From NCBI RefSeq assembly GCF_003634635.1, contig NZ_RBJB01000008.1, forward strand, positions 1-64,000: DNA of 64,000 nt, in the 5' to 3' direction. Every line of letters starts with the position of its first letter. The first letter of the stretch is position 1. This document shows, piece by piece, positions 31,423 to 51,131 of the stretch. The DNA comes from Marinobacter nauticus. GTDB taxonomy: Bacteria > Pseudomonadota > Gammaproteobacteria > Pseudomonadales > Oleiphilaceae. The notes beneath the pieces were generated by a model. That model did not search any database and was not told the origin of the DNA. It worked only from the letters and a program-made list of their open reading frames with translations. The position numbers and the translations under genes were made by a program.

Positions 31423-31616
31423 GAGCGAGCGACTGGAAGGGCCTGGCGAAAATTTCGGAGGCCAGGGATGGCCGGAGAGAAGCGCACATGGGTGAGGCAA
31501 GCGTGTATGAAGCGGAGCTTCATGCGCAGCCGAACGACAGCAATCTGTGATTGCTGGCTGGACCCACTGGTGGGTGCTTGTAGCGGTTTTCGCCAGGCCC
31601 TTCCAGTTGATCGCTC
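31423..31616 (+). repeat. palindromic element, copy A (with internal insert)
   Basis: The outer arms are 31423-31452 and 31587-31616. The inner 20 bases pair perfectly, and the outer 10 pair with a mismatch and G-U-type positions. The core starts ATTTCGGAGGCCAGGGATGG, containing hairpin GGCCA-GGGA-TGGCC, and ends with the GTAGCGG foot as in copies B and C. The second small hairpin is opened by an insert of roughly 80 bases, which itself holds stems ATGAAGC-GGA-GCTTCAT (31507-31523), CAGCAATC-TGT-GATTGCTG and ACCCA-CTGG-TGGGT. It fills most of the 326-base kdsA-eno gap and has no open reading frame I would support. Confidence 0.85.
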
Positions 31617-33463: not shown

Positions 33464-33571
33464 GAGCGCCGGGGAGTGTCTCTCCGGGAACCGCTACAAG
33501 CACATCCATGTGCGCTTCTCTCAGGCCATCCCTGGCCTTCGAAATTCCCGGAGAGACACTCCCCGACGCTC
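33464..33571 (-). repeat. palindromic element, copy B (inverted)
   Basis: The arms 33464-33490 and 33545-33571 are complementary over 27 bases with one mismatch. Their sequence (GAGCGCCGGGGAGTG...) is unrelated to the arms of copies A and C. The 54-55-base core between them reads in the opposite direction to copies A and C. On the minus strand it contains GGCCA-GGGA-TGGCC, then GAGAGAAGC, then GCACA-TGGA-TGTGC and the GTAGCGG foot. It is about 50/55 identical to the core of copy C. It lies in the ftsB-ispD gap, ending 24 bases before the ispD ATG. Confidence 0.88.
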
Positions 33572-50928: not shown

Positions 50929-51036
50929 GCGGCATCAGGGTGCCCTGTCCAAAAATTTCGGAGGCCATGGATGGCCGGAGAGAAGCGCACAAGGATGTGC
51001 TAGTAGCGGTTTTTGGACAGGGCACCCTGATGCCGC
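50929..51036 (+). repeat. palindromic element, copy C (cleanest copy)
   Basis: The arms 50929-50955 and 51010-51036 are perfectly complementary over 27 bases. The core between them (ATTTCGGAGG..., about 55 bases) holds hairpin GGCCA-TGGA-TGGCC, the linker GGAGAGAAGC, hairpin GCACA-AGGA-TGTGC and the foot GTAGCGG. The core is about 90 percent identical to copy B, but the arms share nothing with copies A or B apart from A/T next to the core. It occupies the apbC-dcd gap. No T-tract follows the stem, so it is not a standard terminator. Confidence 0.9.
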
Positions 51037-51040
51037 AGCC

Positions 51041-51070
51041 CCCGCCGTAGCGTTTTTGGAAGCCTTCGAC
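51041..51070 (+). repeat. second partial right half next to element C
   Basis: GTAGCGTTTTTGGAAGCCTTC here repeats the pattern of the element C foot and right arm start (GTAGCGGTTTTTGGA...). AGCCTTCGA at 51061-51069 is complementary to TCGAAGGCT at 50915-50923, just outside the left arm. This looks like the right half of a second, outer element surrounding copy C, or a remnant of one. Confidence 0.55.
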
Positions 51071-51131
51071 AGACCCTAAGGGAACAGGTAAACTACGCCC
51101 CAATTTTCCCAGCTGGAAACGAGAATTCACC

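Follow-up and report, generated by a model that had tools for sequence, protein, structure and literature searches.

A Marinobacter family of TwoAYGGAY-like hairpins with free stems and CsrA/RsmA-type loops, probably a structured RNA

Described families closest to the element

The TwoAYGGAY RNA (Rfam RF01731, clan CL00106) is the closest known family to a hairpin element that recurs in Marinobacter genomes, and in both an outer stem encloses two terminal hairpins with GGA loops. The available part of the report by Weinberg and colleagues describes the TwoAYGGAY motif as probably an RNA and not cis-regulatory (PMC2864571), and CsrA binding has been predicted for it, according to the accessible portion of Gardner and Eldai (PMC4333381). 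In the available portions of the TwoAYGGAY literature (PMC4333381, PMC2864571, PMC11701678, PMC11661157), neither a tested function nor high copy number in Marinobacter, dispersed repeats or free stems were found, and the open-access literature, judged by titles and abstract openings, yielded no description of this Marinobacter hairpin family. The published CsrA/RsmE site, in the accessible part of its source, is (A/U)CANGGANG(U/A), and the corresponding SELEX sequence is RUACARGGAUGU (PMC6692469).

Leaving microRNA families aside, RF01731 was the one bacterial family with a match to the element itself; several microRNA families, returned by cmscan below their cut-off, were rejected as chance matches to the long stem. 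Against the RF01731 cut-off of 43 bits, the element studied most closely here (copy C) scored 25.5 bits and another locus, L047, 41.5 bits (end-to-end model match). No match at the gathering threshold was found in the window, that is, the whole stretch of 64,000 nucleotides of Marinobacter nauticus DNA that was analysed, and copy A gave no match at E ≤ 10. Because copy C lies below the cut-off, it is classed as TwoAYGGAY-like and not as a formal member. RF01731 matched at E ≤ 0.001 in 46 of 61 Marinobacter genomes and in none of 14 controls, and 8 of the 61 exceeded the cut-off. The loci found with RF01731 (L223-L226) are also matched by R1, the covariance model of the present family, so that both models describe one continuum. 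The family differs from TwoAYGGAY in several respects. First, its loops are better written ANGGAN or ANGGAY: in the hairpin 1 loop, 50 of 141 elements have A or G at the second position (N2) and 91 have T or C, and all but one of the 141 have T or C at the sixth (N6). Second, the linker is often GGA/GGA instead of pairs. Third, it occurs in 60 to 121 copies per Marinobacter genome.

Two other kinds of system invite comparison. The sponge RNAs CsrB, RsmX, RsmY and RsmZ share ANGGA hairpins of the CsrA/RsmA pattern with this family, but the units here carry two hairpins and lie at many dispersed loci; RsmZ (RF00166) stayed below its cut-off in all 24 relatives searched. MITEs and REP/BIME sequences are likewise short, palindromic, intergenic and multi-copy. 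In the present family, however, the loop is conserved and the stem free, selection acts on one strand, and the Marinobacter copies have no recognised terminal repeats. REP/BIME membership was rejected since the palindromic stem, which is conserved in those families, varies between copies here. A RAYT/REP relationship, suspected from GTAG and GGAG tetranucleotides, was also dropped because these linker letters differ between subfamilies.

Window copies and extent of the family

A whole-window inverted-repeat search (seed 11, minimum 18 nt, at most 200 nt apart) returned exactly three pairs, of 30 nt with 93% complementarity (copy A), 27 nt with 96% (copy B) and 27 nt with 100% (copy C). These are the same three sites, with the same positions and arm complementarity, that had been reported in an earlier note on this DNA. 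Copy C (50929..51036, core on the + strand) is flanked by an Mrp/ApbC-type P-loop ATPase gene and dcd. On that strand, its 27-nt left arm (50929..50955) is 100% complementary to, and pairs with, the right arm (51010..51036), and between them lie the hairpin 1 region (50961..50978; GGCC-AUGGAU-GGCC) and the hairpin 2 region (50984..51001; GCGCAC-AAGGAU-GUGC), both with ANGGAN loops. Copy B (33464..33571) has its core on the - strand in the spacer between ftsB (DivIC family) and ispD and is antisense to both genes. Copy A (31423..31616, + strand), flanked by a kdsA-like DAHP synthase I family gene and eno, is of the long-loop form; its loop measures 134 nt because a larger multi-hairpin module (31477..31580, limits approximate, + strand) takes the place of hairpin 2. 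The neighbouring genes were assigned by Pfam to the DAHP synthase I family, enolase, DivIC (ftsB), IspD, Mrp/ApbC-type ATPase and dCTP deaminase, and the first of these is read as kdsA from its position.

R1 scored 117.2 bits for copy C, 125.1 bits for copy B and 70.4 bits for copy A. The core pattern, with up to three mismatches, matched three times in the window and not once in 100 dinucleotide shuffles. RNA folding z against shuffles was -8.1 for copy C (plus strand), -11.7 for copy B (minus strand) and -8.0 for copy A (plus strand). The predicted folding energies of the two strands of copy C are nearly equal (-74.3 kcal/mol for the plus and -72.2 for the minus strand), and the assignment of a strand therefore depends on the mispair counts given below.

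The architecture, a stem of about 25-30 bp capped by two hairpins with A-N-GGA-N loops, is repeated throughout this genome and its relatives. The earlier note had counted a family of three and proposed a search for further copies; these exist, and three was an undercount. The core pattern matched 23 times genome-wide, against 0 for a reversed control, and R1 gave 60 matches in 59 places, with 121 and 107 matches in two relatives (G096 and G066). The element is an uncommon structural one, a possibility that the note had raised, and its family comprises dozens to more than 100 RNA-like hairpins per Marinobacter genome. Arms of 22-30 nt were present in 22 of the 23 own-genome pattern copies, the exception (L020) having 13 nt. 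Of 38 relatives, 25 belong to the same genus, and 21 of these have the core pattern, against none of the 13 others. A scan of named species returned at least 111 stretches, and among the 80 listed, 78 are from Marinobacter, one from Idiomarina aquatica and one from a Muribaculaceae genome; the last (L171) carries no arms and was discarded as a chance match. The Idiomarina aquatica locus (L136; NZ_PIPS01000003.1, 2468-2749) is a head-to-head pair with a Marinobacter-like core, scoring 112 and 106 bits, and horizontal transfer is possible in this case. Within Gammaproteobacteria, R1 matched 36 of 274 genomes including the source genome (35 of 273 others) with a patchy distribution beyond the genus, and in a phylum sample it matched at least 17 of 299 genomes, all 17 within Gammaproteobacteria; as 12-13 candidates were scored per genome in both samples, these counts are lower bounds and absence carries little weight. 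Plasmids held no match for copy C, and viral contigs a single R1 match of 16.3 bits.

For the tallies below, 222 loci gave 202 elements parsed with arms, which were reduced to 141 non-redundant elements by dropping any with an outer-arm identity of 0.8 or more to an element already kept. The arm, mispair and hairpin tallies use gapless-arm elements and exclude cores without arms. Alignment A1, the source of R1, is gapless and holds 69 of 70 chosen elements, the Idiomarina one being omitted; neither the selection for the alignment nor the promoter-motif tests included elements that contain N or lie at a locus end. The loop is 54 nt long in 175 of the 202 parsed elements and 133-136 nt in 14, so that copy A belongs to a minority form. 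In this long form (copy A and 13 others), an approximately 80-nt multi-hairpin module, GTGAGGCAAGCG...GGACCC, occupies the place of hairpin 2 and is conserved across species; it has no Rfam match. A second hairpin repeat (TAATCCGACCTACG / CGTAGGTCGGATTA) is frequently found next to elements or in the gap separating two of them, as in the spacers of L049, L150, L161, L212 and L220.

Selection on pairing and on the core strand

The letters of the outer arms are private to each copy, with a mean identity of 0.41 and a maximum of 0.68 among 26 own-genome elements, while the inner approximately 10 bp show a loose TTCC-R-R-AAA pattern. The earlier statement that the arms are unrelated between copies, for which arms conserved between copies had been named as a refutation, can thus be answered in two parts: it holds for the outer part, where no such conservation was found, and not wholly for the inner part. 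Pairing, on the other hand, is kept. Across the 69 elements of A1, pairing in the outer helix reaches 97.8% and 27 of 28 pairs have changed on both sides, and the covariation score of 0.733 compares with 0.179 for shuffled and 0.113-0.172 for slid alignments, which is the covariation between arms for which a check had been suggested. The same is seen at a single locus. At the copy C site, flanked by the ATPase gene and dcd, loci were retained from 30 species (out of 100 genomes with a match), and the element stands in the same orientation in 30 of 30, two of them with quite different arms. Alignment A3 comprises 26 of these orthologues (two duplicates and two with odd loop length omitted); there, 96.0% of the outer helix is paired, and 22 of 27 pairs have changed on both sides. 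Selection therefore operates at the level of structure, pairing being maintained by two-sided changes, and each copy has arms of its own since conservation extends to pairing alone. The description of a conserved loop on freely changing complementary stems, unlike ordinary MITE or REP families, is borne out by both the 69 elements and the copy C orthologues.

Two mechanisms had been offered earlier for such arms. In one, the insertion route copies local flanking sequence into both arms, as the private outer arms of the 26 own-genome elements, none sharing above 0.68, would permit. This is very improbable, since old orthologous sites such as that of copy C carry drifting arms, and arms are shared at unrelated sites of another genome, G331, as well as in the repeats of G361 and G179. 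In G331, three copies at unrelated sites (L313-L315) have shared arms, one with a compensated change, which indicates that arms travel with the copy. As arms drift at a fixed locus with pairing kept, no rewriting of them at insertion is needed.

The second mechanism, arm-to-arm correction, is best judged from the mispairs. Template switching at quasi-palindromes is a known route of such correction, and the near-perfect arms would agree with it. It would act on both strands alike and should clear G-U and A-C mispairs equally. In the 25 inner pairs of the 141 non-redundant elements, read on the core(+) strand, the arms contain 97 G-U and 5 A-C mispairs, and 31 purine-purine against 2 pyrimidine-pyrimidine mispairs; at site C alone the counts are 27 G-U and 1 A-C. 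Correction between arms would also leave the conserved AYGGA-type loops unexplained, and there is hardly any room for it as the cause of the pairing.

The G-U excess was not created by the arm parser, which weighted G-U and A-C equally. It is present in every gene context, including that in which both flanking genes are antisense (24 versus 1), and outside Marinobacter, where 41 elements (41 of 84 matches, after removal of Marinobacter copies and of near-identical repeats belonging to one arm family) hold 26 G-U and 2 A-C mispairs. A close pair of loci (L326/L328) displays an A-to-G step that creates a U-G. These tallies come from related, non-independent sequences, so that p-values overstate, and they point in the same direction in every subset examined. 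The constraint thus acts on the core(+) strand. One-sided mispairs across contexts argue for selection on one folded, transcribed strand and against both a cruciform and arm-to-arm repair; most likely, the single strand folds as RNA. A DNA cruciform predicts no strand asymmetry, which the G-U and A-C counts contradict. Folding of single-stranded DNA on the lagging strand was rejected as well, as the replication strand of the elements is even (74 versus 76, among the 150 matches listed of 228). C-to-T deamination as the source of G-U would leave the 31 purine-purine and 2 pyrimidine-pyrimidine mispairs unexplained.

Loops, transcription and spread

Outside their N positions the loops are essentially fixed. 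In hairpin 1, the A, the GGA and the closing C and G are invariant in 140-141 of 141 elements, whereas N2 is T in 89, A in 33, G in 17 and C in 2, and N6 is T in 115, C in 25 and A in 1. Hairpin 2 has a complete GG-A in 132 of 136 elements, and the spacing from hairpin to hairpin is 24 nt in 163 of 164. By inspection, copies far outside the genus have different stems and retain GGA in both loops. The GGA and its surroundings match the published CsrA/RsmA site, and the loop varies at the same two N positions as the consensus in the accessible part of its source (PMC6692469). A csrA match was found in 34 of 36 R1-positive genomes; the two assemblies with no csrA match are incomplete (G181, 88% complete, and G212, 67%). 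Among good-quality assemblies, csrA is present in 28 of 28 R1-positive and 184 of 208 R1-negative genomes (Fisher one-sided p 0.041), a weak test, as small genomes may lack both.

The family is therefore read, with a probability of about two in three, as a TwoAYGGAY-like structured RNA gene or segment with CsrA/RsmA-type hairpins. The long stem presents two short hairpins, 24 nt apart, whose A-N-GGA-N loops are closed by C-G, and both loops agree with the site recognised by CsrA/RsmA, a dimeric RNA-binding regulator. The loop letters would be fixed because they are read by the protein, and the stem letters free as pairing alone matters, each copy drifting to its own arms through compensatory G-U steps. 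Transcription of the core strand may start from the upstream gene in many copies and perhaps from own promoters in head-to-head pairs. Binding of CsrA/RsmA, which the loop pattern suggests, might titrate the protein or capture it locally.

Gene context bears on how the RNA may arise and on a different role for it. With a home-made ORF caller and 14 edge cases omitted, the upstream gene is on the same strand for 89 of 127 elements and on the opposite strand for 38, and the contexts are convergent (+-) in 46, ++ in 43, -- in 24 and divergent (-+) in 14. Such figures would suit a cis-acting mRNA hairpin, mostly 3′ of genes, that protects, processes or terminates the upstream transcript and whose GGA loops serve another protein or CsrA in cis; the excess of same-strand upstream genes, of ++ over -- and of convergent over divergent contexts all favor it, as does the lack of an own promoter match at copy C. 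Orientation at the other two window sites speaks against it. At site A in 30 species (loci L083-L111), the core is sense in 12, antisense in 12 and missing in 6, as if flipped, which recombination between the inverted-repeat arms would bring about. At site B the core is present in 24 of 30 species and antisense to ftsB-ispD in all 24 (in 3, the loose pattern had a match somewhere on the opposite strand as well). Moreover, the G-U bias persists in antisense contexts. The cis-acting hairpin is thus an unlikely reading, although it takes most of the probability that remains beside the CsrA/RsmA-type RNA.

Near copy C, the sole sigma-70-like promoter match (51066..51094, + strand) lies downstream of the element and is probably the dcd promoter; no match lies upstream of the element, and copy C would probably be transcribed by read-through. 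The surroundings of copies A and B hold no promoter or terminator matches above chance. An intrinsic terminator was rejected, as the U-run is absent and there are 0 terminator matches at copy C; a CsrB/Rsm-type sponge would be expected to have its own promoter and a Rho-independent terminator. Close pairs of elements are head-to-head in 13 of 13 and 19 of 19 cases in two sets, 43-115 bp apart in the first, and visual inspection shows -10-like boxes such as GACTATTAC at either end. In 35 paired copies, a motif found by EM scored 34.5 against a maximum of 26.6 over 10 shuffles, a modest difference, and other groups of elements yielded other motifs. Own promoters are thus possible for the head-to-head pairs. 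Scores for a -10 box of the E. coli consensus were not raised upstream of elements, and a general sigma-70 promoter there is unsupported by motif scoring.

Signs of how the copies may have spread come from outside Marinobacter. In G361, ten copies (L296-L301, L304-L307) lie inside an approximately 187-bp repeat with imperfect terminal inverted repeats of about 30 bp, and copies in L302/L303 and G179 are flanked by other terminal repeats. Together with the patchy distribution and the high copy number, these repeats would be expected of a MITE- or REP-like DNA repeat spread by transposition and devoid of RNA function, whose palindromy serves a transposase or DNA folding. Such a repeat would not be expected to have one-sided mispairs, two-sided change at a fixed locus or loop variation of the CsrA pattern; lagging-strand folding would tend to give the replication-strand bias that the matches listed above lack; and no terminal repeats were recognised in Marinobacter elements, nor was any recent copy or clean recent insertion found among them. 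This reading is accordingly improbable, and mobile elements may rather have helped to spread copies of the structured RNA. On the right flank, which is often conserved, many Marinobacter copies have CTCCAAA..CAGGCTAGGG about 13-17 nt past the arm, with 34 instances of CAGGCTAGG (up to one mismatch) among 141 flanks and no left counterpart. Core-less alleles at sites A and B (L110, L096, L101), which bear on the empty sites with core-independent arms that the earlier note had named as a refutation, resemble deletions and not empty targets; at site A (kdsA-eno) of L110, the core is gone, the arms are retained and the breakpoints lie at AGGGCC repeats.

Two GGA hairpins per RNA are few for a sponge, which weighs against a sponge role for the single element. 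A tandem array in G563 (locus L392, C1:94410-95646) is nearer to a multi-site sponge of the CsrB/Rsm type: five full R1 matches and a partial one follow each other on one strand at a period of about 227 bp, and its 2.7-kb locus holds 24 ANGGA on the array strand versus 8 on the other. It is conceivable, at rather less than even odds, that the dispersed family, which numbers about 60 to 120 copies in each genome, is a regulatory RNA that moves or once moved and whose maintained cargo is a CsrA/RsmA-binding hairpin pair. It would then form a distributed sponge, with a capacity set by active host transcripts or divergent promoters, and tandem arrays would be intermediates towards CsrB-like multi-site sponges.

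In Marinobacter and some other Gammaproteobacteria, each genome thus contains dozens to more than 100 natural variants whose stems are free and whose loops are fixed, and with these the suspected CsrA role of the motif can be tested directly. If that role is true, a repeat family, and not a single sRNA gene or a small number of them, would provide the CsrA capacity of these bacteria, and intergenic palindromes of a class usually dismissed as junk repeats would be regulatory RNA.
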